DNA from: Gluconacetobacter takamatsuzukensis
GTDB taxonomy: Bacteria; Pseudomonadota; Alphaproteobacteria; Acetobacterales; Acetobacteraceae
Assembly (NCBI RefSeq): GCF_014174275.1
Contig: NZ_JABEQK010000002.1
Span: 62,001 to 126,000, forward strand
Length of the DNA stretch: 64,000 nt
Direction of reading: 5' to 3'
Under the pieces are notes generated by a model that ran no database searches, was not told the DNA's origin, and saw nothing but the letters and a program-made list of their open reading frames with translations. Position numbers and translations under genes: made by a program. Shown in pieces: positions 16,141 through 46,398 of this stretch. The first letter of the stretch is position 1, and every line of letters starts with the position of its first letter.

Positions 16141-16272
16141 AGAGCCTGGCCGTAAATGCGGGCTGGTGAGCGAGAGCGGCCCGCCGGGCCGCGCCCGTCG
16201 TGGGTTTCCGAGCACCGGCGCGCAGGAAACGCGCGTCGGATCGCCGCCAGACCGCATTTACGGCCAGGCTCT
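16141..16272. repeat. Palindromic element A, copy 1
   Basis: A perfect 21-bp inverted repeat (16141-16161 and 16252-16272, AGAGCCTGGCCGTAAATGCGG and its complement) encloses a core. The core has GCTGGTGAGCGAGAGCGGCC, a GC hairpin, GCAGGAAACGCGCGTCGGAT and CGCCGCCAG. The element starts 12 bases after the thyX stop, and its last base is the first base of the convergent MOSC gene's stop codon. It can form one long stem-loop in RNA from either strand and probably ends both transcripts. Related copies lie at 30098, 34443 and 46298. Confidence 0.85.
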
Positions 16273-17135
16273 CAGGCTGGTACCAGGTTCGACGGTCCCT
16301 CTTCCAGCAGCCGGACCTGGTCGCCCACCGCGATCCGGCCCGGGCGGACCACCGCCGCGTTCTGGCCGAACATGACCCCGCCCCGGGCGCGGCGGGTGCG
16401 GGCCAGCGTGGCCAGCGGCTCGCGCGGGTCGGGGATTTCGGCCGTCTGCTGGTCGATGGTCGTCACGATGCAGCGCGAGCAGGGCTTGACGATTCGCAGC
16501 AGCGCCGCGCCCACCGCCAGCAGGCGCCAGCCATCCTCGGCCCAGGGCGCGGCCCCTTCCAGCACCAGATTGGGCCGGAAACGGTCCATCGGCACGGCGG
16601 CGGGCAGGTCGCGGTTCAGGGCGTCCAGCGAGTCCCGGCTGGCCAGCAGCACCGCGAACCCGTCGGCGAACCCCACCGTGGCGCCCGGCGGCGCGAAGGC
16701 CGGGTCGGCCGGGCGTGCCCCGGTATCGTGCAGGTAGACCAGCCGGCAGGGGCGGCCCAGCGCGGCGCCCAGCCACGCCGCCGCCGCATCGCCCGCATCG
16801 ACCGCCGGCACGCTGTCCTTCCACACCTGCACCATCCGCCGCGCCCCGTCGGCCGGCGGACGGGCGACCGCGTGCGCGCCCAGCCCCGCCCGCGCCAGCA
16901 CCAGCCCGCCGGGGCCCCGCGCCACGCCGACCAGCGCCATGTGCGGCATCTGGCGCTGGGTCAGGAACCTGCCATCGGGGTCGACCACCATCCAGCGCCG
17001 GTCGTCCTCCAGCCCGCAGGGCCCCAGCCGGCCCTCGGCCACCGCGATGCCGCCCAGCGACTTGACGGGATGGACATGCAGCGCCACGACCCGCGCCACC
17101 GGGGCCCCGGTCGCCGGGTCCGCCAGATCGTTCAT
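16272..17135 (-). CDS. MOSC-domain protein (YcbX-like)
   Basis: The protein (~287 residues) has an N-terminal MOSC_N beta-barrel (VVALHVHPVKSLGGI, GLEDDRRWMVVD) and a C-terminal MOSC domain with the conserved cysteine region KPCSRCIVTTID. MOSC proteins handle molybdenum-cofactor-bound sulfur; YcbX-type proteins reduce N-hydroxylated bases and can carry a ferredoxin domain, which is absent here. Two adjacent ATGs exist (17138 and 17135); GGAGG is better spaced for 17135. The stop codon lies in the right arm of palindromic element A. Confidence 0.88.
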   Translation of the reverse strand: MNDLADPATGAPVARVVALHVHPVKSLGGIAVAEGRLGPCGLEDDRRWMVVDPDGRFLTQRQMPHMALVGVARGPGGLVLARAGLGAHAVARPPADGARRMVQVWKDSVPAVDAGDAAAAWLGAALGRPCRLVYLHDTGARPADPAFAPPGATVGFADGFAVLLASRDSLDALNRDLPAAVPMDRFRPNLVLEGAAPWAEDGWRLLAVGAALLRIVKPCSRCIVTTIDQQTAEIPDPREPLATLARTRRARGGVMFGQNAAVVRPGRIAVGDQVRLLEEGPSNLVPA

Positions 17136-17524
17136 CATGCCCCTCCATATGACCGGGACAGGATGCCGGCGCAGGGGGCGAGCGGTCAATCACGGGAACG
17201 TGAACGAACCTGCCGGGCGGGAGGCGCCGCGCCCGTGCGCGCGTCGTGGGACCGGCCTGCCCATGGGGCGGCCGGCGGCCACGCGGGACCGACCGTTCCG
17301 GACCGGAAACGGGCCCGGCGCCCCGGCGGGGGGTCGAAAATCCCCCCGGCCCCCGCCCTGCTCCGCAGACGCATGACCGAGCGGTCATCGAGAGCGATTG
17401 CACACGCCGCGTCCCATGCTAGAGAGAAGTTTCGCGGACGCGCGTCGACGGGCCGCGAGATCCATTGGCTTCCCCGCGCGTTACAGGCGTTCGGGAACGG
17501 CAGACCAGGGAAACGGGAACGAGC
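17136..17524. other. Intergenic region between divergent MOSC and mlaA genes
   Basis: A GC-rich spacer that must hold promoters for both divergent genes. No ORF with protein-like composition, no repeat shared with other parts of the window and no clear operator were found. Confidence 0.5.
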
Positions 17525-18340
17525 ATGCGTGCAGTGACAGGATCGAACTTACAGCCATCCCGGTCATGTACCCCCGCCCGCCGCCCACGCCGGATCGCCC
17601 GCTTCCTCGCCGGACTGGGGCTGGCCACCCTGGCCGGATGCGCGGCCCCGCCACCCAAGGACCCGGACGCGCTGGCCGAATATCGCGAGGCCAACGACCC
17701 GTACGAATCCCTGAACCGCAAGATGTACGACGTGAGCATGACGCTGGACAAATATTCCATGCGTCCGGTGGCCAAGGCCTATGTCTGGGCCGTGCCCTAT
17801 CGGGTGCGGCAGTCGCTGGGCACCATGGTCCAGACGATGAACGAGCCGGTCGTGTTCTTCAACGATGTCGGCGCGGGCAAGCCCCGCCGCGCGGGCGATG
17901 CCTTCGTGCGCTGGTGCGTCAACATGGTGGCCGGCCTGGGCGGCCTGATCGACGTCGCGAAATATGCGGGCTACCCCCACCATGACAACGATGCGGGGCT
18001 GACGCTGGCGACATGGGGCGTACCGTCCGGCCCGTACCTGTTCCTGCCGATGATGGGCCCGTCCTCGATCCGCGACGGGGCGGGGTACGGCATCGATGTC
18101 GGCCTGTCGCCGTGGAACTATGTCCCCCGGGGCTACGGCCTGCTGACATTCAACTGGGCCTATAACATCATGGGCACGATCAACGGGCGGGCCGACCACC
18201 TGGATGCGCTGGACCAGTTGCAGAAGGACGCGCTGGACCCCTACGCCACCATCCGCAGCGCCTACCAGCAGCAGCGCAAGGCCCAGGCCGAAGCCATCAG
18301 CAACGACCATCGCGCCACCGTACCCGACTGGTACAACTGA
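17525..18340 (+). CDS. mlaA: MlaA (VacJ) family outer-membrane lipoprotein
   Basis: The 271-residue lipoprotein has a signal sequence with lipobox (ATLAGC). The MlaA core follows: NDPYESLNRKMYDVSMTLDK, MVQTMNEPVVFFNDV, TWGVPSGPYLFLPMMGPSSI and IDVGLSPWNY. MlaA sits in the outer membrane and removes misplaced phospholipids, handing them to MlaC. The ATG at 17525 was chosen; it precedes a basic N-region. mlaC follows after 14 bases, and no mlaFEDB genes are present nearby. Confidence 0.94.
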   Translation: MRAVTGSNLQPSRSCTPARRPRRIARFLAGLGLATLAGCAAPPPKDPDALAEYREANDPYESLNRKMYDVSMTLDKYSMRPVAKAYVWAVPYRVRQSLGTMVQTMNEPVVFFNDVGAGKPRRAGDAFVRWCVNMVAGLGGLIDVAKYAGYPHHDNDAGLTLATWGVPSGPYLFLPMMGPSSIRDGAGYGIDVGLSPWNYVPRGYGLLTFNWAYNIMGTINGRADHLDALDQLQKDALDPYATIRSAYQQQRKAQAEAISNDHRATVPDWYN

Positions 18341-18354
18341 ACAGGGACACAGAG

Positions 18355-18975
18355 ATGAAGACAGCCCTCTCCCGTCGTCATGCGCTGGGTCTTGCCGCCG
18401 CAGCCGCCGCCCTGCAGGTCACGGCACCAGCCCGCGCCGCGTCCGCCGAAGAAGCCCGCACGTTCGTCAGCACCTTCGGGCAGCAACTGATCGCGATCGT
18501 CAATTCCGACCGCTCGCTGGCCGACAAGAAGACCGCGATCCTGCCGCTGCTGCAGGACCATGTGGACATGGATTCCATCGGCCGCTACTGCCTGGGCCGC
18601 TACTGGCGGGTGGCCACACCGGAGCAGCAGACCCGCTTCCTGGCCGTGTTTCACCAGATCCTGGTCAACTCCATCTCGGACAAGATCGGCGATTACCGGG
18701 GCGTGACCTTCACCATCGGCAACGTTTCCGCCTCCGGCACCGACCAGGCGGTGGATACGGTGATCAACCGCCCCGAGCAGCCCCCCGTCAACGCGCAGTG
18801 GATCGTCAGCTTCAGCAGCGGCAAGCCCATGGTGGTGGACGTGATGGCCGAAGGCCCCAGCCTACGCCTGACCACCCGGCAGGATTATGCGTCCTTCATC
18901 GGCCGGCATAACGGCAGCATCGACGCGCTGCTGCATGCGCTGGACCATCAGGTGGCGGCGCACAGCACGCCGTAG
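18355..18975 (+). CDS. mlaC: MlaC/Ttg2D family phospholipid-binding protein
   Basis: The 206-residue periplasmic protein has a twin-arginine-like signal (SRRHALGLAAAAAALQ). The MlaC fold follows: MDSIGRYCLGRYWRVATPEQQ, FLAVFHQILVNSISDKI and VDVMAEGPSLRLTTRQDYASFI. It shuttles phospholipid between MlaA and the inner-membrane MlaFEDB complex. It is co-transcribed with mlaA. A two-hairpin repeat starts directly after the stop codon. Confidence 0.93.
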   Translation: MKTALSRRHALGLAAAAAALQVTAPARAASAEEARTFVSTFGQQLIAIVNSDRSLADKKTAILPLLQDHVDMDSIGRYCLGRYWRVATPEQQTRFLAVFHQILVNSISDKIGDYRGVTFTIGNVSASGTDQAVDTVINRPEQPPVNAQWIVSFSSGKPMVVDVMAEGPSLRLTTRQDYASFIGRHNGSIDALLHALDHQVAAHSTP

Positions 18976-19025
18976 GCAAGGGCAAAGCCCTTGACCCACC
19001 AAAGGGCGGAGCCCTTTGGAAACCC
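18976..19025. repeat. Two-hairpin repeat B, copy 1
   Basis: Two stem-loops in tandem: AAGGGC-AAA-GCCCTT (18978-18992) and AAAGGGC-GGA-GCCCTTT (19001-19017). They are separated by GACCCACC and followed by GGAAACCC. The same arrangement recurs at 29822. Here it starts immediately after the mlaC stop, between convergent genes, and may serve as a bidirectional terminator. Confidence 0.75.
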
Positions 19026-19090
19026 ATTCGTTTTCTTGGTGATTGGGGTGCAGGGCCTCGGGCCCTGCGGTCCGGGACCGCGCCCGGGTG

Positions 19091-19759
19091 CTATTCCGGC
19101 AGCCTGATGGGACGGCGCGGCGGCAGGGGGGGTAGCGGGTCGGCGGCGACCTCGCGGATGCTTTCATAGACCAGCATCAGGTGCCCGTCGCGGTCGAAAC
19201 TGTCGCACTGGGTCATGCCGATTCCGCCCAGGATGGTGCGCGAGGCGATGTTGGTGTCGCGCGTTACCGCCATCACCCGGCGGATCCCCGCATCGTGGGC
19301 GAAGCTCAGCGCCGCCGACGCGGCCTCGCGCGCCAGGCCGCGCCCGGCCGCCCACGGCCAGAGCGCGAAGCGCAGGCCGAGGCCCCGCCCGTCGGGGCGC
19401 TCGTGCAGGCCGGTCATGCCGATGAAGCGGCCATCCTCGCGAATGGTGAAGATGCCGACGCCGCGCCGCGCCCAGCAAGCCATGTCGTCGGCCATGTCGG
19501 CCTCGGCCTGCTGGCGGCTGCGTACGCCGCCCAGCATCATGCTGAACGCCCCGGCATCGGCCTTCAGGCGGGCCATGTCGTCGATATCGCGCCACGAGAC
19601 CGGCTCCAGCACCAGCCGCGGCGTGCGGATCGGCCCGCCGGCGATGCGCGCGCGGGTCGTCCATTCCGCACGGTCGGCGGGCTGCCCCCACGGGCCGCGG
19701 CGCAGGTGCCGCGTCCCGGCCGGGTCCGGCCCGTCAGCCCCGCGCGGCGGGCGCGTCAC
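19091..19759 (-). CDS. GNAT family N-acetyltransferase
   Basis: The protein (~222 residues) belongs to the RimJ/RimL-like GNAT group. It opens the fold with IRTPRLVLEPVSWRDIDDMARL and shows GVGIFTIREDGRFIGMTGLH. The acetyl-CoA loop region ALWPWAAGRGLAREAASAAL comes next, then ASRTILGGIGM. The substrate is unknown. The start is uncertain: a GTG at 19759 is the first plausible start after the upstream ettA stop, and conserved sequence begins about 35 codons later. It is tail-to-tail with mlaC across repeat B. Confidence 0.82.
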   Translation of the reverse strand: MTRPPRGADGPDPAGTRHLRRGPWGQPADRAEWTTRARIAGGPIRTPRLVLEPVSWRDIDDMARLKADAGAFSMMLGGVRSRQQAEADMADDMACWARRGVGIFTIREDGRFIGMTGLHERPDGRGLGLRFALWPWAAGRGLAREAASAALSFAHDAGIRRVMAVTRDTNIASRTILGGIGMTQCDSFDRDGHLMLVYESIREVAADPLPPLPPRRPIRLPE

Positions 19760-19802
19760 GGGGGGCCGGCAGGACGATCGGGACGTGCATCGCCCCGGCG
19801 GT

Positions 19803-21482
19803 TCAGCGTGCCAGGGGGCGGTACTTGATCCGTCCCGGCTCGGTCGCATCCGGACCGAGTCGACGTCGCTTGTCCTCTTCGTAGGCCTGGAAATTGCCCT
19901 CGAACCATTCGACGTGGCTGTCGCCCTCGAAGGCCAGGATATGCGTCGCCAGACGGTCGAGGAACCAGCGATCATGGCTGATGATCACCGCGCAGCCCGC
20001 GAATTCGGCCAGGGCGTCTTCCAGCGCGCGCAGCGTGTCGACGTCCAGGTCGTTGGTCGGTTCGTCGAGCAGGATGACGTTGCTTTCCTGGCGCAGCATC
20101 TTGGCCAGGTGCACGCGGTTGCGCTCGCCGCCCGACAGGATGCCGACCTTCTTCTGCTGGTCCGCGCCCTTGAAGTTGAAGGCGCCGACATAGGCGCGCG
20201 AGGGCACGGCGCGCTTGCCCAGATAGATGACGTCGGTGCCGCCGGAGATTTCCTCCCACACCGTCTTGTTGTCATCCAGGCTGTCGCGCGACTGGTCGAC
20301 ATAGCCCAGCTTGACGGTGTCGCCGACCTTCAGCGTGCCGGAATCCGGCTGTTCCTGCCCCACGATCATGCGGAACAGGGTCGACTTGCCGGCACCGTTG
20401 GGCCCGATGACGCCGACGATGCCGCCGGGCGGCAGCTTGAAGCTGAGATCGTCGATCAGCAGCCGGTTGCCGAACGCCTTGCGCAGGTCCTCGGCCTCGA
20501 TCACCGTGCCGCCCAGGCGGGGGCCGGGGGGGATGACGATGTCGGCGGTGCCGGTCGCACGCTCGGCATTCTGGGCCAGCATTTCCTCGTAGCGGGCGAT
20601 ACGCGACTTGCTCTTGGCCTGCCGGGCCTTGGGGCTGGAGCCGATCCATTCCTGCTCGGCGGCCAGGGCGCGCTGGCGGGCGCTTTCTTCCTTTTCCTCC
20701 TGGGCCAGGCGCTTGCGCTTCTGTTCCAGCCACGAGGAATAGTTGCCCTGGAACGGGAAGCCGCGGCCGCGCTCCAGTTCCAGGATCCAGTTGGTGACGT
20801 TGTCGAGGAAGTAGCGGTCATGGGTGATGATCATGACCGTGCCCTCGTAGTCGCGCAGGGTCCGCTCCAGCCACGCCACGCTCTCGGCGTCCAGATGGTT
20901 GGTCGGCTCGTCCAGCAGCAGCAGGTCGGGCTTTTCCAGCAGCAGGCGGCACAGGGCCACGCGGCGGCGCTCGCCGCCCGAAAGTTTGGTCACGGGACTG
21001 TCGGCCGGCGGGCAGCGCAGCGCGTCGAGCGCGATGTCGATCTTGCGGTCCAGCTCCCACCCGTCGCCCGCGTCGATCTTTTCCTGCAGCTCGGCCTGCT
21101 CGGCCAGCAGCGCGGTCATCTCGTCGTCGGACATCGGCTCGGCGAACTTCATCGAGATCTCGTTGAAGCGGTCGACCGCCACCTTCAGGTCGCCGAAGCC
21201 CAGGGCCACGTTCTCGCCGACGGTCAGGGACTCGTCCAGCTTGGGCTCCTGCTCCAGATAGCCGATGCGGGTGCCTTCGGCGGCCCAGGCCTCGCCGCCA
21301 TATTCCTTCTCGATCCCGGCCATGATCTTCAGCAGGGTCGACTTGCCGGCGCCGTTCACGCCCAGCACGCCGATCTTCACCCCGGGCAGGAAGGACAGGG
21401 TGATGCCCTTGAAGACCTCGCGCCCACCCGGATACGCCTTGGTCAGGTCCTTCATCACATAGACATATTGCGTGGCGGCCAT
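19803..21482 (-). CDS. ettA: Energy-dependent translational throttle protein EttA (ABC-F)
   Basis: The 559-residue soluble ABC-F protein has two ATPase cassettes: Walker A GVNGAGKST and GPNGAGKST, signatures LSGGERRRVALCRLL and LSGGERNRVHLAKML. They are joined by the charged linker EKEESARQRALAAEQEWI and SSPKARQAKSKSRIARYEEM, which reaches the ribosomal P-site tRNA. There is no membrane domain. In E. coli EttA gates the first peptide bond according to ATP/ADP. Length and linker match EttA rather than Uup or antibiotic-resistance ABC-F proteins. Confidence 0.96.
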   Translation of the reverse strand: MAATQYVYVMKDLTKAYPGGREVFKGITLSFLPGVKIGVLGVNGAGKSTLLKIMAGIEKEYGGEAWAAEGTRIGYLEQEPKLDESLTVGENVALGFGDLKVAVDRFNEISMKFAEPMSDDEMTALLAEQAELQEKIDAGDGWELDRKIDIALDALRCPPADSPVTKLSGGERRRVALCRLLLEKPDLLLLDEPTNHLDAESVAWLERTLRDYEGTVMIITHDRYFLDNVTNWILELERGRGFPFQGNYSSWLEQKRKRLAQEEKEESARQRALAAEQEWIGSSPKARQAKSKSRIARYEEMLAQNAERATGTADIVIPPGPRLGGTVIEAEDLRKAFGNRLLIDDLSFKLPPGGIVGVIGPNGAGKSTLFRMIVGQEQPDSGTLKVGDTVKLGYVDQSRDSLDDNKTVWEEISGGTDVIYLGKRAVPSRAYVGAFNFKGADQQKKVGILSGGERNRVHLAKMLRQESNVILLDEPTNDLDVDTLRALEDALAEFAGCAVIISHDRWFLDRLATHILAFEGDSHVEWFEGNFQAYEEDKRRRLGPDATEPGRIKYRPLAR

Positions 21483-21567
21483 GACGAAGGCTCCCGATGA
21501 TCCAGAGTAAAAAGAAACCGAACGGCCGGCGTTCCCGAAGGCGGGAGGCGCGGCGTGGTATGCAGCC

Positions 21568-21641
21568 TGCGCCCGGCAGGACTTGAACCCGCAACCAAGC
21601 CGTTATGAGCGGCCCGCTCTGACCAATTGAGCTACGGGCGC
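21568..21641 (-). tRNA. tRNA with CAU anticodon (probably tRNA-Ile2, possibly tRNA-Met)
   Basis: On the minus strand, GCGCCCG pairs with CGGGCGC, the anticodon loop is CTCATAA and the T-arm is GCGGGTTCAAGTCCTGC. CCA is not encoded. The CTCATAA loop, CUUGGU variable region and TTCAAGTCC T-loop resemble bacterial tRNA-Ile2, whose CAU is modified to lysidine by TilS. An elongator Met identity cannot be excluded without an identity-element model. An initiator tRNA is excluded by the paired first base pair. Confidence 0.9.
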
Positions 21642-21801
21642 GCAGGCCGGTCCTCACTTCGCCCATGTGCGGCCGTTTGGCAAGATGCAGCGTGCCCCGC
21701 GCGGGCGATTCCCGGCGCCGAAACGGCGCTTGGCAAGGGCGGGCGGCGTCGATAGGTTCGGCCGTCTTATCTCTCCGTTTCCAAGAGTATGGAGCGCCGC
21801 C

Positions 21802-22329
21802 ATGGATGTGTCGAAAATTTCGCCCGGCAAGGACGTGCCGTTCGATATCAACGTTGTCATCGAGATCCCGCAGGGGTCGTCGGTGAAATATGAAATCGAC
21901 AAGGATAGCGGCGCCGTCGTGGTCGACCGCATCCTGTTCACGCCGATGGCCTATCCGGCCGCCTACGGCTTCATTCCCGGCACTCTGGCCGCCGACGGCG
22001 ACCCGGCCGACGCGCTGGTGCTGATCCCGGCCCCCGTGGTGCCCGGCGCCGTGATCCGCGCCCGGCCGATCGGCATGCTGCGCATGGAAGACGAGAGCGG
22101 GCAGGACGAGAAGATCATCTGCGTGCCGCACGACAAGGTGCATCCGCAGTACTCCAAGGTCGAGAAGCTGGAAGACCTGCCCGAGATCACCCTGCAGGCG
22201 ATCGAGCATTTCTTCACCCGCTACAAGGACCTGGAGAAGGGCAAGTGGGTGAAGGTGACCGGCTGGGCCGGCCGCGAGGAAGCCGGCGAGATCATCAAGT
22301 CCTCGCTCGCCGCCGCCCGGAAAGGCTGA
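21802..22329 (+). CDS. ppa: Inorganic pyrophosphatase (family I)
   Basis: The 175-residue enzyme hydrolyses pyrophosphate to drive biosynthesis. The metal-binding signature is visible as DGDPADALVL (near residue 65), along with KYEIDKDSG, MAYPAAYGFIPGT and DEKIICVPHDKVHP. Length is typical of the hexameric bacterial enzyme. The start MDVSKIS was chosen; the upstream in-frame extension covers the tRNA promoter side and is not conserved-looking. A strong hairpin follows the stop. Confidence 0.96.
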   Translation: MDVSKISPGKDVPFDINVVIEIPQGSSVKYEIDKDSGAVVVDRILFTPMAYPAAYGFIPGTLAADGDPADALVLIPAPVVPGAVIRARPIGMLRMEDESGQDEKIICVPHDKVHPQYSKVEKLEDLPEITLQAIEHFFTRYKDLEKGKWVKVTGWAGREEAGEIIKSSLAAARKG

Positions 22330-22338
22330 TTCCCTTCC

Positions 22339-22368
22339 CCCTCCTGCCGCCCTGGGGCGACAGGAGGG
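22339..22368. terminator. Bidirectional terminator hairpin between ppa and a convergent glycosyltransferase gene
   Basis: CCCTCCTG (22339-22346) pairs with CAGGAGGG (22361-22368) around a GC-rich loop that itself is nearly self-complementary. It occupies the 43-base gap between the two convergent stops, so it probably ends both transcripts. Confidence 0.65.
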
Positions 22369-22372
22369 ACCT

Positions 22373-23599: not shown

Positions 23600-23711
23600 G
23601 ACATCGTCCCCGGGCCGGTTGGGGCATGCGGGCCGGTGGGCGCGGGCGGGACAGCCGGCATGTCCCGACCGGCCCCGGGCTGCCCGGTGGCGCGGGCAGG
23701 CCGGATTCCGC

Positions 23712-29878: not shown

Positions 29879-29882
29879 GTTA

Positions 29883-30097: not shown

Positions 30098-30261
30098 AGT
30101 TTTGGCCCGCAAACGTGGGCTGGTGAGCGAGAGCGGCCCACAGGGCCGCGCCCGTCGTGCGTTTCCGAGCACCGGAGCGGAGCGGCCTTATGGGCCGTGA
30201 GCACCGGAGCACAGGAAACGCGCGTCGGATCGCCACCAGCGCGCGTTTGCGGGCCAAAACT
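30098..30261. repeat. Palindromic element A, copy 2 (longest)
   Basis: The outer arms AGTTTTGGCCCGCAAACG (30098-30115) and its exact complement (30244-30261) differ in sequence from copy 1 yet pair perfectly. Inside are the family core (GGGCTGGTGAGCGAGAGCGGCC, GTTTCCGAGCACCGGAGC, CACAGGAAACGCGCGTCGGA and TCGCCACCAG) and an extra ~30-base internal hairpin (CGGCCTTATGGGCCG). The right arm overlaps the TAG stop of the minus-strand hlyD-like gene (30260-30262). Confidence 0.85.
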
Positions 30262-31693
30262 AGGGTTCGCGCATGCCATTGGTTATTATCGGCACCAGAT
30301 GGTTCAGCAGATATTGCATGATGGTGCGGCGGCCGACATGGATGTCGGCTTCGACCGGCATGCCGGGCTGGGGGTGGAAAAAGGGCGGCACGCCGTGCAG
30401 CGTGTAGCGGTCGACCCGCACCCGCGCGCGGTAATAGGCCTCCATCCCGCCCGTATCGGCCGGCTGGGCGGGGGCGGACGCGCCCGGGGTGCCGCGCCCG
30501 TTCTCGCCGGGGGCGAAGGAATCGGCGCTGATGACGCGCACGACCCCTTCGGCCCCGCCATATTGGGTATAGGGGAAGGTCGCGAATTTCAGCAGCACAT
30601 GGTCGCCGGCCCGGATGAAGCCGACATCGGAGCCCCGGATCGCGGCCTCGACCTCCAGCCCGCTATCGACCGGCACCAGCGTCATCAGTTGCGTGCCCGA
30701 CTGCATGACCGAGCCCACGGACAGGGCGGCGATGCTCAGCACCACCGCGTCGCGGTCGGCGCGCATCACCATCATGCTGTGCCGCAGCCCGGCCTTGCGG
30801 GATTCGTCGCGCGCGTCGGCCAGGTGATGCTGGGCGGTCGCCAGGTCCTCGTAGACCCTTGCCTTCCAGTTCTGCACGAAGCCGTCGCGTTCGGCCGTCA
30901 CGGCCTCCAGCTTCGCGCGGGCACTGTCGGCGGCCTGGTGGGCGGCGATCTGGGCGCGCTCGACCTCCATCAGGTCGTTCTGCGCCGCCAGCGTGGACAG
31001 GCGGCTGCCCACCTGGTCGCGTTGCAGGCGCAGGCGCATGGCATGCACGTTGGCCGCCACGCGGGCGCGGGCGCCATACATGGCGGCATCGGCCAGATTG
31101 CCCTGCATGTCGCTGCGCGCGCCGGCGATCTGCTTGTCGTAATTCTCGACCCGGGCGGTCAGCTCGGCCCGGCGGCGGGCGAAGGCGGCGGCTTCCTGCA
31201 TCGTGGCCGGGTCGGCGGGGTCGGGCGCGTACTCCCGGCCCTCGGCCTCCGCCGTCAGGCGCGCCACCTGGGCGGCATAGGCGCCGGCCTGCTGGCCCAT
31301 ATCCTCGACATCCGCGCCGGTCACGGTCGGGTCCAGCCGGGCCAGGACCTGGCCCTTATGGACGAAATCGCCCTCATGCACGTCGATGGAGCGGATGATC
31401 GCGGTTTCCAGCGGCTGGACCACCAGCGTCGCCTCGGTCGAGACCATCCGCCCCTGCGACGTCACCACCTGGTCGAGCGGGAAGACCGACATCACGACCA
31501 CGCCCATGATCGCGAGCGCGGAGATGATCCACGACAGATAAAGCGCCGAGGCGGTGGGCGGCAGGTCGATCAGCGCCAGGCTGGGCGAATGGAATTCCAG
31601 CAGGGCGCGGGGCATGTCGCGCTCGGCGGTCTCGGGCAGGATATAGGCCTCGACCGCATCGGTTTCGGGCGGCACCAGGGGGGTGGCGGTCAT
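30260..31693 (-). CDS. Type I secretion membrane fusion protein (HlyD family)
   Basis: The 477-residue protein has one membrane helix near residue 55 (LSWIISALAIMGVVVMSVF). A lipoyl-type half-motif follows (IRSIDVHEGDFVHKGQVLARL), then a long periplasmic coiled coil (about 130-300) and a beta-barrel region with GVVRVISADSFAPG. It bridges the inner-membrane ABC protein to an outer-membrane TolC-type channel. Its ATG overlaps the ABC gene stop by 4 bases (ATGA). No TolC gene or RTX substrate lies in the window. The gene ends inside palindromic element A. Confidence 0.92.
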   Translation of the reverse strand: MTATPLVPPETDAVEAYILPETAERDMPRALLEFHSPSLALIDLPPTASALYLSWIISALAIMGVVVMSVFPLDQVVTSQGRMVSTEATLVVQPLETAIIRSIDVHEGDFVHKGQVLARLDPTVTGADVEDMGQQAGAYAAQVARLTAEAEGREYAPDPADPATMQEAAAFARRRAELTARVENYDKQIAGARSDMQGNLADAAMYGARARVAANVHAMRLRLQRDQVGSRLSTLAAQNDLMEVERAQIAAHQAADSARAKLEAVTAERDGFVQNWKARVYEDLATAQHHLADARDESRKAGLRHSMMVMRADRDAVVLSIAALSVGSVMQSGTQLMTLVPVDSGLEVEAAIRGSDVGFIRAGDHVLLKFATFPYTQYGGAEGVVRVISADSFAPGENGRGTPGASAPAQPADTGGMEAYYRARVRVDRYTLHGVPPFFHPQPGMPVEADIHVGRRTIMQYLLNHLVPIITNGMREP

Positions 31694-34442: not shown

Positions 34443-34539
34443 GACGCTGTTTGAAAAGTCGGCCTGCCGAGCGCGAGTGCCGCGAAGCACAGGAAACGCG
34501 CGGAGGACACGCCGGCAGAGCGACTTTGCAAATAGCGTC
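34443..34539. repeat. Palindromic element A, copy 4 (short variant)
   Basis: The arms GACGCTGTTTGAAAAGTCGG (from 34443) and CGACTTTGCAAATAGCGTC (to 34539) pair with a few mismatches. Inside are GAGCGCGAGTGCCGCGAAGC and ACAGGAAACGCGCGGAGGA, related to the right half of the core in copies 1 and 2. The right arm ends exactly one base before the TAA stop (34540-34542) of the minus-strand DUF336 gene. Confidence 0.7.
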
Positions 34540-35025
34540 TTACGCGTGGAAGTTGGTCGCCGCGTCGGTCGCGACGGCATCGTCCAGATCGTCGGTCGCG
34601 CCGCTGACCCCGACCGCGCCGATGACGTATTTGCCGTTCATGACCGGGTGGGAACCCGGCACCGCCGCAATACCGGGCAGCGTCATCAGGAAGGCCTGGT
34701 TCTGCTTGATGCGCTGGGCGAATTCCTTGCCCGGCGAGGAATAGAGGGCTGCCGTCCGCGCCTTCTTGATCGCGGTGTCGTCCGTTCCCGTCTGGGAATC
34801 GTCCATGCGGGTAAAGGCCAGAAGGCGGCCCGATCCATCGACGACGGCGATGCTGACCCGCATGCCGCGCTGCCTGGCCGAGGCCTCGGCGGCGTTCAGC
34901 AGGCTTTTCGCGCCCTCGCTGCTGAGAATCGCACGTGTCAGCAATTTGCCTTCATCGGCATGGGCCGCCGCGAAGGCGGGGAACAGCGCCAGAACGGCCA
35001 GGGGGCCGAGATGTCTGATTTTCAT
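34540..35025 (-). CDS. Secreted DUF336 / GlcG-HbpS-like protein (1)
   Basis: The 161-residue protein has a signal peptide (LGPLAVLALFPAFAAAHA) and a single DUF336 domain: GAKSLLNAAEASARQRGM, VSIAVVDGSGRLLAFTRMD, IKKARTAALYSSPGKEFAQR, and GKYVIGAVGVSGATDDLDDA. Family members include the haem-binding HbpS and GlcG of glycolate loci; the exact function is often unknown. GGAG 5 bases ahead selects the ATG at 35025. A second DUF336 gene lies 39 bases upstream on the same strand, so they form a tandem pair. Confidence 0.88.
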   Translation of the reverse strand: MKIRHLGPLAVLALFPAFAAAHADEGKLLTRAILSSEGAKSLLNAAEASARQRGMRVSIAVVDGSGRLLAFTRMDDSQTGTDDTAIKKARTAALYSSPGKEFAQRIKQNQAFLMTLPGIAAVPGSHPVMNGKYVIGAVGVSGATDDLDDAVATDAATNFHA

Positions 35026-35064
35026 GTCCACTCCGGATGCGGGAATGATGGGAACGCGGTTGTG

Positions 35065-36632: not shown

Positions 36633-36649
36633 TGTTTTTCTCTTGAACG

Positions 36650-38071: not shown

Positions 38072-38208
38072 GAAGAAACCTCTTGTTCTTATTATTTTTT
38101 CAGATTTCTTGATGAAGGCGTTTCGTCGTCATGCCATGCGGATGATTTCCTTTTGGGGCGGGAGGATTCCCGCCCCTGTTTCCACGACCGCGCGGGGCCG
38201 GTTCTCCC

Positions 38209-39708: not shown

Positions 39709-39751
39709 CTCTGTGTTCCTGGACTGCATGGTTGGGGCGGGGGTGACCGGG

Positions 39752-40570
39752 TCAGTAGGAGGACGCGCCCGTGGCGCCCGCCACCACGTCGCCGGTGCGG
39801 GCAAGCCGCCGGACCTCGGCCACCGAATCCTGCGCCGCCTGCGCAAGCAGGCGGACATCGTTGGAGACCGTGACCAGGTCGCACCCCCAGCCGATCGCAC
39901 GGGCCGCATAGGCGGCCGAGCCGTTATGCAGCCCCATGCGGATGCCGGCCGCGCGGGCGGCGGCGATGATGCGCCGGATGGCATCCAGCATCTCGGGCTC
40001 CTCGCGGTCGAAGCCGGTGCGATAGCGCCGCCCGGTCAGGCCCAGCGTCAGGTCGGCGGGGCCGACATAGACACCGTCCAGCCCCGGCGTGCGGACGATC
40101 TCGTCCAGATTGGCCATCGCTTCCGCCGTCTCGATCATCGCGAAGCACAGGACCTCGTCATCGGCGACGGCGCCGTAATCGCTGCCCAGCGCGAAATTGG
40201 CCCGCGTCGGCCCGAAGCTGCGGCAGCCACGGGGCGGATAGCGCACGTAGGAGACCAGCCTTTCGGCATCGGCGCGGCTGTTGACCATCGGGCAGATCAC
40301 ACCCCAGGCGCCGGCATCCAGCGCCTTCATGATCGAGGCAGGGTCGAGCCAGGTCGAACGCACCATCGGCGCCACGCCCGACGCCCGCATCGCCTGGAGC
40401 ATGCCGAGCATGCCTTCGTAGCCGATGGCGCCGTGCTGGGTGTCGATGGTCACCGAATCGTAGCCGGCGGCGGCCATGATCTCGGCCGAGAACGGGTTGG
40501 CGATCGACAGCCAGCCGTTGATCGCCGCCCCGCCCTCTGCCCAGATGCGCCGGATCGGGTTCCTGTTCAT
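39752..40570 (-). CDS. HpcH/HpaI family class II aldolase
   Basis: The 272-residue TIM barrel matches 2-keto-3-deoxy-sugar-acid / 4-hydroxy-2-oxoheptanedioate aldolases. Visible are NGWLSIANPFSAEIMAAAGY, SVTIDTQHGAIGY, the metal-binding Glu in FAMIETAEAMANLDEI and the metal-binding Asp in GVYVGPADLTLGLTG. Retro-aldol cleavage yields pyruvate plus an aldehyde. It lies between the dehydratase and the semialdehyde dehydrogenase, so the three probably form one pathway. Substrate chain length cannot be set from sequence. Confidence 0.88.
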   Translation of the reverse strand: MNRNPIRRIWAEGGAAINGWLSIANPFSAEIMAAAGYDSVTIDTQHGAIGYEGMLGMLQAMRASGVAPMVRSTWLDPASIMKALDAGAWGVICPMVNSRADAERLVSYVRYPPRGCRSFGPTRANFALGSDYGAVADDEVLCFAMIETAEAMANLDEIVRTPGLDGVYVGPADLTLGLTGRRYRTGFDREEPEMLDAIRRIIAAARAAGIRMGLHNGSAAYAARAIGWGCDLVTVSNDVRLLAQAAQDSVAEVRRLARTGDVVAGATGASSY

Positions 40571-40599
40571 GATGTCTGTCCTGACCTGTCGGGGCGGCG

Positions 40600-42381
40600 C
40601 TAGTAGATGACCGGCTCGGGCACCGGGGCGCCGAAATCGGTCTGGAGGAAATCGAAATCGCACCCTTCGTTGGCCTGGCGCATGTGATGCGCGGCCATCC
40701 AGCCATAGCCGCGCCCGTAGCGCGGCGGCGGCGGGGTCCAGGCCGCGCGGCGGCGGGCCAGCTCGTCCTCCGGCACTTCCATCGAGATCGACCGGGCCTC
40801 GACATCGATCGAGACGATATCGCCGGTTTTCAGCAGGGCAAGCGGGCCGCCGACATAGCTTTCGGGCGCCACATGCAGCACGCAGGCGCCGTAGCTGGTG
40901 CCGCTCATCCGCGCATCCGACAGGCGGAGCATGTCGCGATGCCCTTCCTTGATCAGGCGCTTGGGCATCGGCAGCATGCCCCATTCCGGCATGCCCGGGC
41001 CGCCCAGCGGGCCGGCATTGCGCAGCACCAGGACATGGTCGGGGGTGACGTCCAGCGTCTCGTCCTCGATTGCCTTCTTCATGCTCGGGTAATCGTCGAA
41101 GACCAGCGCCGGGCCGCTATGCTTGTGAAATTTCGGGTCGCAGCAGGCCGGTTTCATCACGCAGCCATCGGGGGCCAGGTTGCCGCGCAGGACGGTAAGC
41201 GCCCCGCCCGCCCGGCCGGTGAACATCGGCCTGTCGAGCGGCCGGATGACGTCGTCGTTCCATACCTGCGCGTCCCTGATGTTCTCGCCCACGCTGCGGC
41301 CGGTCACGGTCAGGCAGGTGAGGTCGAGAAAGGACGAAATCCGGTTCATCAGCGCCGCGATGCCGCCGGCGTAATAGAAATCCTCCATCAGATAGGTCGT
41401 GCCGGTGGGCCGGACATTCGCGATCACCGGCACCTCGCGGCTGGCGCGGTCGAAATCGTCGAGCCCGATCGGCACCCCGGCGCGGCGCGCCATGGCGATG
41501 ACGTGGATGATGGCATTGGTCGAGCAGCCCATCGCCATCGCCACCGCAATGGCGTTGAGGAAGGCGGCATGGGTCTGGATCCTCGACGGTTTCAGATCCT
41601 CGCGGACCATGTCGACGATCCGCCGCCCCGAACTCTTGGCCATGCGGATATGGTTGGAATCGACCGCCGGGATCGAGCTGGCCCCCGGCAGCGACAGGCC
41701 GATTGCCTCGGCGATGGCGGTCATGGTGCTGGCCGTGCCCATCGTCATGCAGGTGCCCGCGCTGCGGGCGATCCCGGCCTCGACCCCCTGCCAGTCCGCC
41801 TGTGTGATCTTGCCGGCCCGCAATTCGTCCCAGTATTTCCAGGAATCCGCGCCCGAGCCCAGCGTCTTGCCCTGCCAGTTGCCGCTCAGCATCGGCCCGG
41901 CGGGCACGTAGATCGCGGGGATGTCCATGCTGGTCGCGCCCAGCAGCAGGCCGGGCGTGGTCTTGTCGCAGCCGCCCATCAGCACCGCGCCGTCCACGGG
42001 GTAGGAGCGCAGCAATTCCTCCGCCTCCATCGCCAGCATGTTGCGATAGAGCATGGTGGTCGGCTTCATGAAATTCTCGGACAGCGAGATCGCCGGCAGC
42101 TCCAGCGGAAAGCCGCCGGCTTCCAGCACGCCGCGCTTCACGTCCTCGACCCGCTGCTTGAAATGCATGTGGCAGGGGTTGATGTCCGACCAGGTATTGA
42201 GGATCGCGATAACCGGCTTTCCCTCCCAGTCCTGCGGATCGTACCCCATCTGCATCGCGCGCGAACGGTGCCCGAAGCTGCGCAGATCGGCCGGCCCGAA
42301 CCACCGCTCGCTGCGCAGCGTGCGCCTCTCGGTGGTGCCCGTGGCCAGGTCGGGCGTCCGGGCTCCGGCGTCTTCTGTCAT
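40600..42381 (-). CDS. IlvD/Edd family sugar-acid dehydratase (L-arabonate dehydratase type)
   Basis: The 593-residue Fe-S dehydratase shows the cluster cysteines in LMGGCDKTTPG and RSAGTCMTMGTAS, with ALSLSE-like AISLSENFMKPTTM and RLSDARMSGTSYGACVLHVA near the C-terminus. RSFGHRSRAMQMGYDPQDW and CDFDFLQTDFGAPV are characteristic of the arabonate/xylonate branch, not of dihydroxy-acid dehydratase. It should convert an aldonic acid to a 2-keto-3-deoxy acid. AAGGAG before the ATG at 42381 supports the start. It is divergent from a LysR gene and begins the dehydratase-aldolase-dehydrogenase run. Confidence 0.9.
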   Translation of the reverse strand: MTEDAGARTPDLATGTTERRTLRSERWFGPADLRSFGHRSRAMQMGYDPQDWEGKPVIAILNTWSDINPCHMHFKQRVEDVKRGVLEAGGFPLELPAISLSENFMKPTTMLYRNMLAMEAEELLRSYPVDGAVLMGGCDKTTPGLLLGATSMDIPAIYVPAGPMLSGNWQGKTLGSGADSWKYWDELRAGKITQADWQGVEAGIARSAGTCMTMGTASTMTAIAEAIGLSLPGASSIPAVDSNHIRMAKSSGRRIVDMVREDLKPSRIQTHAAFLNAIAVAMAMGCSTNAIIHVIAMARRAGVPIGLDDFDRASREVPVIANVRPTGTTYLMEDFYYAGGIAALMNRISSFLDLTCLTVTGRSVGENIRDAQVWNDDVIRPLDRPMFTGRAGGALTVLRGNLAPDGCVMKPACCDPKFHKHSGPALVFDDYPSMKKAIEDETLDVTPDHVLVLRNAGPLGGPGMPEWGMLPMPKRLIKEGHRDMLRLSDARMSGTSYGACVLHVAPESYVGGPLALLKTGDIVSIDVEARSISMEVPEDELARRRAAWTPPPPRYGRGYGWMAAHHMRQANEGCDFDFLQTDFGAPVPEPVIY

Positions 42382-42514
42382 GCGGTCTTCTCCTTGCCCG
42401 GTCGCGGCCATCGGCCGTGGCGGGATGACGGGTGCGTTGGGGCGCAAGTTAGGGCGCGACAGATCTGCGGTGTCCAGATTAGATACGGCATGGATTGAGA
42501 CAGGATTGGTATCG
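42382..42514. promoter_or_regulatory. Divergent promoter region between the dehydratase and lysR genes
   Basis: This 133-base spacer lies between a catabolic gene and a LysR regulator transcribed away from each other, the standard site for LysR control. GATAC at 42482 and GTATC at 42509 form a spaced inverted repeat. No canonical T-N11-A site is assigned with certainty. Confidence 0.45.
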
Positions 42515-43432
42515 ATGCTTCAGCTCACCCAGGTCCGGTGCTTCGTCGCGGTCGCCGAGGAATGTCATTTCGGGCGGGCGGCGGCACGGCTGAACATGAC
42601 GCAGCCGCCGCTGAGTCGGCAGGTCCAGCTTCTGGAGCACGAGCTGGGGGTGGAACTGCTGGAGCGCACCAGCCGCAGCGTGCGGCTGACCCAGGCGGGC
42701 ACCGTGTTCCTGCCCGAGGCGCGGCGCCTGCTGCGCAGCACCGAGGACGCGGTGCAGGCCGCCCGCCGGGCCGGGCGCGGCGCGCTGGGGCAGATCGCGA
42801 TCGGCTTTACCCCCTCGAACAGCTACGATTTCCTGCCCCGGCTGATTTCCGCCCTGCGCGCGGACTACCCCGACGTGGAACTGATGCTGGAGGAGATGAT
42901 CACCCGCGACCAGCTCGCGGCCCTGGCCTCGCACCGCATCGACCTCGCCTTCATGCGCCCGCCCTTCGAGGCCGCCGGGATCCGGTCGCGCCGCGTGCTG
43001 GCCGAACGCATGGTCGCCGCCCTGCCCGCCGACCACCCGCTGGCGGCGCGCGACGCGCTGACCCCGGCGGACCTGGAGGGGCAGGAGCTGATCATGTACT
43101 CCATCCTGGGCAGCGGCTATTTTCATGACATCGTGCACCGGCTGCTGGTCAGCGCGAACATTCGGCCCCGACTGGTGCATCACCTGACGCAGATCCACGC
43201 CGTACTCTCGATGGTGAAGACCGGCGTGGGCATGGCGCTGATCCCCGAATCGGCGTCGCGGCTCGGTATCGGAAATGTCATCTGTCGCCCCCTGGCCTTC
43301 GGCGAGGAGATCGCGGTCGAGCTTTTCATGGCCCATCGTGCGGACGACGCAAGCCTGGTCCTTGAAAATGTCATGGCTGTCGCCGCAAAGATCGCCGAAA
43401 CGGGTCGCCCGTCCACCCCGTCCATCCCCTGA
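42515..43432 (+). CDS. LysR family transcriptional regulator
   Basis: The 305-residue protein has the N-terminal helix-turn-helix (MLQLTQVRCFVAVAEECHFG, AAARLNMTQPPLSRQVQLLE) and a substrate-binding domain starting GQIAIGFTPSNSYDFLPRLI. The effector is probably a sugar acid or its 2-keto-3-deoxy derivative (inference from context). The start at 42515 was chosen because it opens the canonical LysR N-terminus. It probably controls both the divergent dehydratase operon and the downstream MFS gene. Confidence 0.93.
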   Translation: MLQLTQVRCFVAVAEECHFGRAAARLNMTQPPLSRQVQLLEHELGVELLERTSRSVRLTQAGTVFLPEARRLLRSTEDAVQAARRAGRGALGQIAIGFTPSNSYDFLPRLISALRADYPDVELMLEEMITRDQLAALASHRIDLAFMRPPFEAAGIRSRRVLAERMVAALPADHPLAARDALTPADLEGQELIMYSILGSGYFHDIVHRLLVSANIRPRLVHHLTQIHAVLSMVKTGVGMALIPESASRLGIGNVICRPLAFGEEIAVELFMAHRADDASLVLENVMAVAAKIAETGRPSTPSIP

Positions 43433-43624
43433 CCGGCGGAGCCGTCGTGCGGCCGATCCGGCGCCAACGATGCGCGCCCTGTATCGATCCATGCGAAGTT
43501 TGGCTTTGACGCGGCCCGTCGCCACGCGCTCCCTATGCCGCAGGATCGCGTGATGTCGCGGTGCGGCGGCCCCTGAACCCCGGTTCCGCAGCCCCCCGGC
43601 CAGCGCACTGAGGGAGAATACAGG

Positions 43625-45001
43625 GTGACGACAACAAGAGGGCCAATGGCATGCCCCCCGGTCACGCATCCGTCGGCGACCAACGAGGCAAGCAGGGCGG
43701 GGCGGCGCACCATCGTGCGCTATTCCGTCCTTTCGTTCCTGTTCGTGATCACCGCGATCAATTACGGCGACCGCGCCACGCTCGGCATCGCGGGCTCCAG
43801 CATCGCGCATGACCTCGGCCTGACGCCGGTGGCCATGGGCTATGTCTTCTCGGCCTTCGGCTGGGCCTATGTGCTCAGCCAGGTGCCGGGCGGCTGGCTG
43901 CTGGATCGCTTCGGCTCGATCCGCGTCTATGGCGCCAGCCTGTTCGCCTGGTCGCTCTGCACGCTGGCCATTGCCGGGATCGGCCGGATTCCGCACGCTA
44001 TCGCCTTTCCCGCGCTGTTCGTGCTGTGGGCCGGGCTGGGGCTGGTTGAGGCACCGACCTTCCCCGCCAACAGCCGCATCGTGTCCAGCTGGTTTCCGAC
44101 CTCGGAGCGCGGGCTGGCGACCTCGATCTTCAATTCGGCGCAATATGTCGCGGTGGCGTTCTTTGCCCCGGTGATGGGCTGGGTCACCCAGCAATTCGGC
44201 TGGGAATATATCTTCGCCGCCATGGGCATCGCGGGCATGGGGCTCGCACTCTTCTGGCTGGCGCGGATGCGGCCACCGGCCACCCATCCCGCCGTCAACG
44301 CCGCCGAGCTGGCCTTCATGCGCTCCGGCGGCGCGCTGGTCGACATCGACGACCGCAGCCGGCGGGTCAAGCGCACGCTCACCGGGCGGCAGATCCGCTT
44401 CATGCTGACCGACCGGACCCTGCTGGGCGTCTATGGCGGCCAGTACTGCATTACCGCGATCCTGTATTTCTTCCTGACCTGGTTCCCGCTCTACCTGCAC
44501 CAGTCGCGCGGGCTTTCGATGGCCCAGACCGGGCTGGCGGCCAGCGTGCCGGCGCTGTGCGGGCTGGCCGGCGCGATCGTGGGCGGCGCCCTGTCCGACA
44601 TGCTGCTGCGCGCCGGCCGGTCGGAGACGCTGGCGCGCAAGGCGCCCTATGTGATCGGCATGGCCATCGCCTCGACCATCTGCCTGTGCAATTTCGTCCA
44701 CTCCGCATGGCTGATCGTGGCGATCATGTCCTTCGCCTTCTTCGGCAAGGGTGTCGCCGCCATCGGCTGGGCCGTCATCTCCGACATCGCCCCCCGCGAA
44801 ACGCCGGGGCTGGCCGCCGGGATCTTCAACGGCATCGGCAATATCGCCGGCATCGTGACGCCCATCGTGATCGGCTACATCGTCGCGTGGACGAAATCCT
44901 ATGACGGGGCGCTGCTTTTCGTCGCCGCGCACTGTGTCGTCGCGATCCTTCTCTATCTCTTCGTGGTGGGCAGGATCCGGCGCCTGTCCCTGCCTGCCTG
45001 A
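43625..45001 (+). CDS. MFS transporter, anion:cation symporter (sugar-acid) type
   Basis: The 458-residue protein has twelve predicted helices. The first is YSVLSFLFVITAINYGDRAT, the N-YxDR signature of the ACS family that includes glucarate/galactarate importers GudP and GarP. The intermediate loop is GWLLDRFGSIRVYG, and WAVISDIAPRETPGLAAGIF lies near helix 10. It should import the acid used by the dehydratase with protons. A GTG start with GGGAGA upstream was used. It is downstream of lysR and upstream of the Yellow-like gene. Confidence 0.9.
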   Translation: MTTTRGPMACPPVTHPSATNEASRAGRRTIVRYSVLSFLFVITAINYGDRATLGIAGSSIAHDLGLTPVAMGYVFSAFGWAYVLSQVPGGWLLDRFGSIRVYGASLFAWSLCTLAIAGIGRIPHAIAFPALFVLWAGLGLVEAPTFPANSRIVSSWFPTSERGLATSIFNSAQYVAVAFFAPVMGWVTQQFGWEYIFAAMGIAGMGLALFWLARMRPPATHPAVNAAELAFMRSGGALVDIDDRSRRVKRTLTGRQIRFMLTDRTLLGVYGGQYCITAILYFFLTWFPLYLHQSRGLSMAQTGLAASVPALCGLAGAIVGGALSDMLLRAGRSETLARKAPYVIGMAIASTICLCNFVHSAWLIVAIMSFAFFGKGVAAIGWAVISDIAPRETPGLAAGIFNGIGNIAGIVTPIVIGYIVAWTKSYDGALLFVAAHCVVAILLYLFVVGRIRRLSLPA

Positions 45002-45097
45002 AGCCGGCCGGCAGCGTCGCGGGGGCGACGGCGACCGGCAGCGACCAACGACAACAGAAAATCTCCGACAACAATAACAAGAACAAGAGAATATCCC

Positions 45098-46297
45098 ATG
45101 TCTCATCTTGTCGATGCTTTCAACCGGCCGCTCTCGCGGCGCGCCGCGCTGACGGGGCTGGCCGGCGGCCTGGCGCTGGCCGGGTGCGAGGCCGCCGGCC
45201 TCCGGCAGGCCATGGCCGCTTTCCGGCCGCCGCATCTGCGCGCGACCGTCATCGCCTCCTCACCCCGCTATCTGTGCAACGCCGTGGCCGCGACGCGGGA
45301 CGGCACGCTGTTTCTGGGCGCGCCGCGCTGGGAACTGATGGAAGACACGCCCAGCGTGTTTCGCGTGGCGCCCGACGGCGGCCTGCACCCGTTCCCCGGT
45401 GGAAGCTGGAACCAGTGGAAGCCGGGCGGCGACCCGACCAACGCGTTCCTGATGGTCAACGGCCTGCATATCTTCAGCGACGATACGCTGTGGGTGGTGG
45501 ACCAGGGCGTCGACCCGACGACGGGCAGCACGGTGCCCGGCGGGCAGAAGCTGGTGCAGTTCGACACCCGAAGCGGCAAGGTGCTGCAGGTGCTGCGCTG
45601 GGGGGCCGACATCCTGCCGCCGGGCTCGGCCATGAACGATTTGCGCATTGCCGGCGACCTGATGTTCGTGACCGATTCCGGCCTGGGCGGGATCATCATC
45701 CATCACATGGGCAGCGGCGAGACAGTGCGCCGGCTGTCCGAACATCCCCTGCTGCGGGCAACCGATGCCAAGCCGATGCGCGCGCGTGACGGGCATATCT
45801 TCACGGACCGGAACGGCAAGCGGCCGCTGGTCCATTCGGACATGCTGGAGATCACCGCTGACCGGAAATGGTTCTATTTCTCGGCCCCCGTCGGCCCGCT
45901 GCGCCGCCTGCCGACCAGCGCGCTGCTGGACATGAGCCTGACCGACGCCCAGCTGGCCGCGCAGATCGAAACGGTTCTGGACATGCCGACGATGATGGGC
46001 ACGGCCATCGACACGCTGGACAATGTCTACTTCGCCGATGCCGAGCACGGGCGCATCACGGTGCTGACGCCCGAGCGCAAGCAATTGACGCTGTTCGAAG
46101 ACCCGCGACTGGTCGATGGCGATGCCCTGTTCATCACCGCCGACCGGCACATGCTGGTCCCGATTGCACAGACCGAGCGCCTGCCGGGCAACAATGCGGG
46201 CATCAATGCCCTGAAGCCACCCTTCATCAGCCTCGGCTTCGCACTACCGGAGACGCTGGACGGCCATCGGCTAGGCAATGTCGTAAGCAGCCTCTGA
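45098..46297 (+). CDS. Yellow/MRJP-type beta-propeller protein, exported
   Basis: The 399-residue protein has an N-terminal export signal with SRRAALTGLAGGLALAGC, combining a twin arginine and a lipobox-like Cys. The Major Royal Jelly/Yellow pattern follows: VNGLHIFSDDTLWVVDQGVD, KLVQFDTRSGKVLQVLRW, MNDLRIAGDLMFVTDSGLGG, VHSDMLEITADRKWFYFSA. These are six-bladed propellers related to lactonases, so a periplasmic sugar-lactonase role beside the dehydrogenase is attractive but unproven. Palindromic element A starts right after its stop. Confidence 0.82.
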   Translation: MSHLVDAFNRPLSRRAALTGLAGGLALAGCEAAGLRQAMAAFRPPHLRATVIASSPRYLCNAVAATRDGTLFLGAPRWELMEDTPSVFRVAPDGGLHPFPGGSWNQWKPGGDPTNAFLMVNGLHIFSDDTLWVVDQGVDPTTGSTVPGGQKLVQFDTRSGKVLQVLRWGADILPPGSAMNDLRIAGDLMFVTDSGLGGIIIHHMGSGETVRRLSEHPLLRATDAKPMRARDGHIFTDRNGKRPLVHSDMLEITADRKWFYFSAPVGPLRRLPTSALLDMSLTDAQLAAQIETVLDMPTMMGTAIDTLDNVYFADAEHGRITVLTPERKQLTLFEDPRLVDGDALFITADRHMLVPIAQTERLPGNNAGINALKPPFISLGFALPETLDGHRLGNVVSSL

Positions 46298-46398
46298 GAG
46301 CCTGAGCGTAAATGCGCTCTGGTGGCGATCCGACGCGCGGGCGCGGCCCGGCGGGCCGCCGCTCTCGCTCACCAGACCACATTTCCGGTCAGGCTCCG
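46298..46398. repeat. Palindromic element A, copy 3 (inverted orientation)
   Basis: GAGCCTGAGCGTAAATG pairs, with three mismatches, with CATTTCCGGTCAGGCTC at the right end. The core is the reverse complement of that in copy 1 (CTGGTGGCGATCCGACGCGC ... GCCGCTCTCGCTCACCAG). It begins at the base after the TGA (46295-46297) of the Yellow-like gene and separates that gene from the dehydrogenase operon. Confidence 0.8.

Follow-up and report, generated by a model that had tools for sequence, protein, structure and literature searches.

A dispersed palindromic element lies at the stop codons of four genes in a 64,000-nucleotide stretch of Gluconacetobacter takamatsuzukensis DNA (contig NZ_JABEQK010000002.1, positions 62,001 to 126,000), which we refer to as the window; the genome it belongs to, G000, measures 3.78 Mb. 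We conclude that the element represents a mobile or formerly mobile family that is associated with stop codons and conserved in structure. Its arms are probably kept complementary at the DNA level, and a putative mild effect on mRNA 3' ends is likely. On the evidence below, the family probably works as a non-autonomous mobile palindrome in the manner of repetitive extragenic palindromic (REP) elements or miniature inverted-repeat transposable elements (MITEs). The four copies and the adjacent stop codons are:

16142 to 16271, minus strand: copy 1, 130 bp, core-model match with E 9e-13; stop-side arm 16246-16271, core 16168-16245, distal arm 16142-16167.
16272 to 16274, minus strand: TGA stop of a MOSC-domain gene, immediately adjacent to copy 1; its orthologues terminate at the equivalent residue.
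16139 to 16141, minus strand: TGA beyond the far end of copy 1, a direct repeat of the stop-codon triplet.
30099 to 30260, minus strand: copy 2, the full-length form, core-model match with E 5e-25; arms 30235-30260 and 30099-30124, core 30125-30234.
30260 to 30262, minus strand: TAG stop of an HlyD-family gene, sharing one base with the arm of copy 2.
34443 to 34539, minus strand: copy 3, regarded as a member of the CTGCC...GGCAG subfamily with an internal deletion.
34540 to 34542, minus strand: TAA stop of an HbpS-like gene, abutting copy 3.
46298 to 46396, plus strand: copy 4, internally deleted, core-model match with E 0.027; arms 46298-46323 and 46371-46396, core 46324-46370.
46295 to 46297, plus strand: TGA stop of an MRJP/Yellow-like gene, abutting copy 4.

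Read by the adjacent gene, copies 1 to 3 are minus-strand and copy 4 is plus-strand, so all four share one orientation to their stop. A sequence-only reading of this DNA had described four dispersed copies, each abutting or overlapping a stop codon, with 21 perfect outer pairs in copy 1, 18 perfect outer pairs of other bases in copy 2, and arms that pair with mismatches in copies 3 and 4. We recovered all of this. The genes it had labelled MOSC, HlyD and Yellow-like kept their labels, and the one called DUF336 is HbpS-like by its domain matches. For copy 4 the start was right, but the end lies at 46396 instead of 46398. A shared core had been ascribed to all four copies; a core covariance model recovered copies 1, 2 and 4 and missed copy 3, which is taken as a diverged, internally deleted member. 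Element size in the window ranges from 97 to 162 bp, and the family as a whole comes in a full form of ~160 bp and internally deleted forms of ~130 or ~100 bp. Folding z-scores were -10.17 for copy 1, -6.35 for copy 3 and -4.58 for copy 4.

Read from the adjacent gene, the layout is stop codon, 26-nt arm, core and second 26-nt arm. The core starts with GGCGATCCG and finishes with CTCTCGCTC, and the 26-bp length of the arms is counted from the motifs GGCGATCC and CTCTCGCTC towards the outside. Twenty-five copies from the window's genome gave a consensus fold, a three-way junction composed of a long outer stem and two inner hairpins. Pairing in this fold amounted to 94.4% of 1315 cells, compared to 87.2% in shuffles, and both-sided changes occurred in 25 pairs, compared to 10.9; none of 500 shuffles reached either value. 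The copies are related by descent, hence p-values and shuffle counts given here are not probabilities of independent events. Covariation beyond chance, which the sequence-only reading had required, was evident against the shuffles. Arm pairing was 92% at position 24, 87% at 25, 67% at 26 and 23% at 27, and the drop over the last step reveals a sharp, fixed stem end. Among 109 non-redundant copies, the outer 17 pairs were Watson-Crick in 90.7% of cases, compared to 56.5% when right arms were re-dealt between copies (standard deviation 1.1, maximum 60.5; 0 of 2000 as high as observed). Sliding the arms by 1 to 3 positions left 16 to 33% Watson-Crick pairing (all 172 places collected). The 1853 cells of the 109 copies comprised 1224 with the commonest pair, 457 with another Watson-Crick pair, 40 G-U, 58 A-C and 74 others. 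Across loci the arms share a weak consensus. Two mismatches near the core are conserved, C.C in 112 and C.A in 101 of 171 copies, and these give the fold a polarity.

Comparison of the same locus between species revealed 139 cells changed on both sides (122 of them paired in both species) versus 81 changed on one side; double changes therefore prevail at single loci. As many as 57 of the 81 one-sided differences came from comparisons with one mosaic copy (L268:356-517, the mlaD-like locus of congener G011), which is identical to G004 in its core and right arm and has a left arm of another type. This copy shows that recombination or transfer between species occurs. The loci secA, cysK and hslU hardly contribute to this comparison, since their orthologues were already counted elsewhere or fell under the pairing threshold.

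DNA searches detected the element in 14 of 14 Gluconacetobacter genomes, its own included. The genus-wide collection gave 172 places; one (L067 731-840) was a chance match and was dropped, leaving 171 distinct copies. A lack of further copies, which would have refuted the sequence-only reading, is thereby ruled out. Counts of edge sequence, T runs, slid pairing and stop use still include it, which shifts copy counts by at most 1 and the slid-arm pairing by up to 17 cells. DNA and pattern searches yielded 61 places from the window's genome, and the analyses used the 54 whose arms pair well. A pattern of 21 core bases hit 79 places in G000 and 32 in G001, where the reversed control pattern gave 0; in the other 118 genomes of the family it gave 0 to 3 per genome (control 0 to 2). 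Among titled records hit by a core pattern, all of the matches listed were from Gluconacetobacter. The core covariance model, the kind of search proposed along with the sequence-only reading, matched 16 of 150 genomes of the order, in 6 of 41 genera, with the number of matches per genome capped; all of the matching genomes belong to one family, and some have a single weak match. The relatives in sister genera (31 matches in G014, 7 in G020, 5 in G017, 2 in G019 and 1 in G032) have the same junction and quite different arms. Two of those in G014 (L331, L341) are simpler, apparently lacking the second inner hairpin, and their long arms are unrelated in sequence. We also observed three-copy tandem arrays with a spacing of ~140-240 nt (L315:2960-3400; G014:C1:339488-339940; G010:C16:1671-2129); in the L315 array, the sole one with arms compared, the right arms are alike. 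Plasmid and phage collections contained no match to the element. Rfam gave nothing above the gathering score on the window copies and nothing up to E 5 on the copies in five loci. In agreement with the sequence-only reading, no named family was met in the open-licence papers searched; the text on repeats and intergenic elements in PMC2765452, as far as consulted, names no palindromic family.

The association with stop codons is not confined to the window. Coding stretches were called with a log-odds score of codon use, derived from 26 frames of the window, at thresholds of our own choosing (60 for the window-genome count, 40 for another count), and 24 of the 172 places were left out for short flanks. 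In the window's genome a coding frame clearly ends on the stop side in 34 of 54 copies, at the stem edge in 21 of these and within 0 to 3 nt in 28. Genus-wide, 101 of 147 copies with flanks have a stop-side coding end, 52 of them at distance 0, 74 at 0 to 3 and 87 at -3 to 10 nt; in the other 46 no coding end exceeded the threshold in the searched stop-side span. On the opposite side, also genus-wide, a coding end within 0 to 3 nt was found in 2 of 34. A TGA at the element edge ends a coding frame in 48 of 67 copies (63 without a score threshold), compared to 14% of tolerated TGAs in the window, an expectation drawn from a crude set of 48 genes in this one window, which is also the baseline for stop use. 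In 30 of the 87 stop-adjacent copies the stop reaches 1-8 nt into the arm, and in 10 of these the whole codon falls within it. The stretch downstream scores as co-directional coding in 55 of the 87, so these are not mainly convergent gene ends.

Orthologous loci with and without the element show insertion. At the MOSC locus the element is present in G000, and 13 of 13 congeners have no full element there, their genes terminating at the equivalent residue. At six more gene ends (secA, ispF, cysK, valS, mlaD-like and hslU; 12-13 sequences each) the element sits directly behind natural C-termini, for example SecA ending in ...KHCHGRLA and HslU ending in ...LSRFIL. At secA (compared without G006), valS, mlaD-like and hslU it is missing from other species. 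Since orthologues of MOSC, secA, hslU, valS and mlaD-like without the element terminate at the equivalent position, the stop in these cases belongs to the gene itself. The idea that the element in general supplies the stop was consequently rejected for the compared genes.

The junctions carry a footprint. TGA stands at the left of the arms in 86 and at the right in 30 of 171 copies, against a background of 1.9%, and identity of the left and right triplets was 0.45 at offset 0 compared to 0.16-0.28 at 12 other offsets. One clean filled/empty pair was obtained: L124 (G. asukensis) reads TGA, element, TGAAGAAAGGATCAGG, and G004 reads TGAAGAGGATCAGG; TGA is repeated, and a 2-nt difference follows just after the repeat. 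At the MOSC locus the right flank TGAGGGCCGCC (following sequence TGAGGGCCGC) resembles, read by eye, the element-free site TGAGGGCGGC of G007. Left-side alignment reaches as far as the stop in 14 of the 20 candidate empty sites. The TGA footprint may be a 3-nt target repeat or, equally, the trace of a unit that carries a TGA at its own end and inserts behind another TGA.

We weighed whether these features could instead reflect an RNA element selected at mRNA 3' ends, where a stop-adjacent three-way junction would block 3'-5' exonucleases, limit Rho loading or end transcription. We regard this as possible but rather unlikely. The stop-side orientation and distance, the strong folds and the covariation would all suit it, as would the fact that further Acetobacteraceae genera have this architecture with different arm sequences, and the mlaD-like copies of several species bear A- and U-tracts at the stem foot. 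However, the element is missing at the same genes in congeners, and the stretches scoring as co-directional coding that follow most stop-adjacent copies also speak against it. A T run of at least 4 at and after the arm end occurs in only 14 copies (of 171-172). Individual copies may qualify as U-tract terminators, but the terminator option of the sequence-only reading, in its canonical U-tract form, is not general in the family. The same reading had taken changed bases with kept pairing as a sign of selection on an RNA or hairpin structure; the one-sided intermediates do not support selection on an RNA. Selection on the transcript would tolerate G-U over A-C on the gene's strand. Yet the outer 11 pairs of the 54 copies from the window's genome contain 7 G-U versus 15 A-C on that strand; only outer positions were used, since the overall A-C excess of this set (57 versus 15) comes mostly from the C.A pair near the core. 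Because G-U is not commoner, the covariation is no proof of RNA function. A G-U count not exceeding A-C, as with the 40 and 58 cells above, is what DNA-level upkeep of the arms predicts.

The few and roughly symmetric intermediates in near-perfect palindromes would fit template switching, by which one arm is rewritten from the other. A precedent for such upkeep is offered by the template-switched hairpins of Monttinen and Loytynoja (2022, PMC8794818), which, in the parts consulted, likewise show multi-base compensatory changes without a G-U surplus. That study deals with RNA genes, rRNA above all, and reports that 78.5% of two-step compensations affected G-U/U-G pairs, a share unlike that of our one-sided cells.

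Among the three options of the sequence-only reading, the non-autonomous mobile element is thus the one that fared best, and a course of events can be proposed for it. An enzyme supplied in trans would recognise the folded core on one strand, using the polarity given by the C.C and C.A stem mismatches, and would join the element 3' of a TGA. Copies would persist where they are least harmful, right after a stop, and there become the 3' untranslated region hairpin of the gene. After insertion, the arms would be kept complementary mainly by template switching between them during replication, which would rewrite one arm from the other, so that arm sequences could drift and still remain near-perfect palindromes.

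Several observations weigh against a mobile family of this kind. The gene-end preference, without which the sequence-only reading would have been refuted, exists but is partial: it holds for the 74 of 101 copies with a coding end within 0 to 3 nt, and 58 of 147 copies have no stop detected nearby on either side. Stop use at 0 to 3 nt (58 TGA, 10 TAG, 6 TAA) equals that of the window genes (38/6/4, p 0.99) and hence suits an association with stop codons of any kind better than a target made up purely of TGA. The tie between the two TGAs is modest, a right TGA being found in 21 of 86 copies with a left TGA and in 9 of 85 others (p 0.026), and extension of the palindrome may partly explain the T found at the first outer position. 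Of the 20 candidate empty sites, 1 gave an exact 3-nt repeat (the L124/G004 pair), 6 carried the element or a remnant, and the remaining 13 showed no base-exact right junction. The arms also lack the sequence conservation expected of a transposon end. The search for a mobiliser also counts here. Y1_Tnp, the domain of REP-associated tyrosine transposases (RAYT), was found in 0 of 14 congeners, compared to 5 of 14 control genomes. IS110 was rejected as mobiliser, being missing from 7 of 14 genomes including the copy-rich G000. Seven loci of G000 where the left half seemed to be unpaired showed no inserted gene displacing the right half in ~3 kb per side, inspected without an open reading frame search; L313 and L315 proved to be full copies of the other subfamily, and the rest are truncations.

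A further reading, which we consider doubtful, is that the family forms a new class of mobile structured element that, on inserting, would recognise stop codons as such, TGA, TAG and TAA according to their use, for example by an RNA- or ribosome-coupled route, and whose recognition by fold would leave the arms free to drift as near-perfect palindromes. An origin as MITEs of a DDE transposon with 3-bp target duplications appears similarly doubtful. TGA direct repeats, inverted arms and internal deletions would be in line with it. However, no parent was found in the seven loci or in plasmid or phage records, and since the arms differ between copies there is no conserved terminal inverted repeat. 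The fixed orientation to the target also argues against it, as it is not expected of DDE elements with symmetric ends. Mobilisation as a REP family by a RAYT (Y1 HUH) transposase is very improbable. The element is palindromic, dispersed and mostly strand-specific with a short flanking target, and GTAG REPs are reported, in the sections of PMC3733652 consulted, to supply stop codons to flanking open reading frames. Membership in the GTAG/RAYT class was nevertheless rejected on the lack of the RAYT gene, on the terminus, as the edge logo reads CTGA then G/A without a terminal GTAG, and on size, 97-162 bp compared to the 20-40 bp palindrome by which the same source, in that part, defines REPs. 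Least probable of all is that the core inserted into loops of pre-existing terminator hairpins, which would account for locus-specific arms and a stop-adjacent position; this source of the arms was rejected because element-free sites, read by eye, have no such stems, and it does not agree with arms that have a constant length of 26 bp, stop abruptly and share a weak consensus between loci.

The window also holds an alphaproteobacterial permuted tmRNA at 14782-15121 on the minus strand (Rfam 237 bits), placed by ARAGORN at 14740-15089 with the tag ANDNSEVLAVAA. It overlaps a plus-strand open frame, 14887-16128, whose match to Thy1 (thymidylate synthase complementing protein) begins only at residue 142, and the real start of that gene is therefore probably downstream of the tmRNA.

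The probable mobile family thus offers a large natural data set, with many copies, many species and orthologous loci with and without the element. Arms that covary almost perfectly, with G-U intermediates not favoured, make it a natural test case and a good one for separating DNA-level hairpin upkeep from true RNA function: it can be tested whether upkeep of a palindrome in DNA yields covariation, the usual proof of a functional RNA. It also raises the question how a mobile element settles, for the most part in a single orientation, on the stops of core genes, secA, hslU and valS among them.

Among known systems, REP elements and bacterial interspersed mosaic elements of the GTAG, RAYT-mobilised type are among the closest. 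They too are dispersed non-coding palindromes at gene ends, thought to be mobilised in trans, and the many dispersed copies of REPs have their counterpart in the 79 pattern places of G000 and the 171 copies of the genus. REP termini can even form the stop codons of neighbours (PMC3733652, in the part seen); they differ from our longer element with its three-way junction and variable arms, in a genus where no RAYT was found. CGTC-class palindromic repeats are likewise dispersed palindromes without a dedicated transposase, but they have another size and other ends, and the portion of PMC3733652 consulted gives them as missing in Acetobacteraceae. With MITEs the element shares inverted arms, internal deletion derivatives and a short direct target repeat, the latter visible in the TGA repeat statistic, in one exact pair of 20 and, by eye, at the MOSC locus. 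It differs from them in arms that are paired but variable instead of conserved terminal inverted repeats, in its mostly fixed orientation to the stop codon and in the absence of a parent transposon from our searches. Integron attC sites also conserve structure over sequence, carry asymmetric mismatches in a long hairpin and lie behind stop codons; the copies described here are dispersed and not in cassette arrays. The element works like REP elements and MITEs, yet fails defining features of both.

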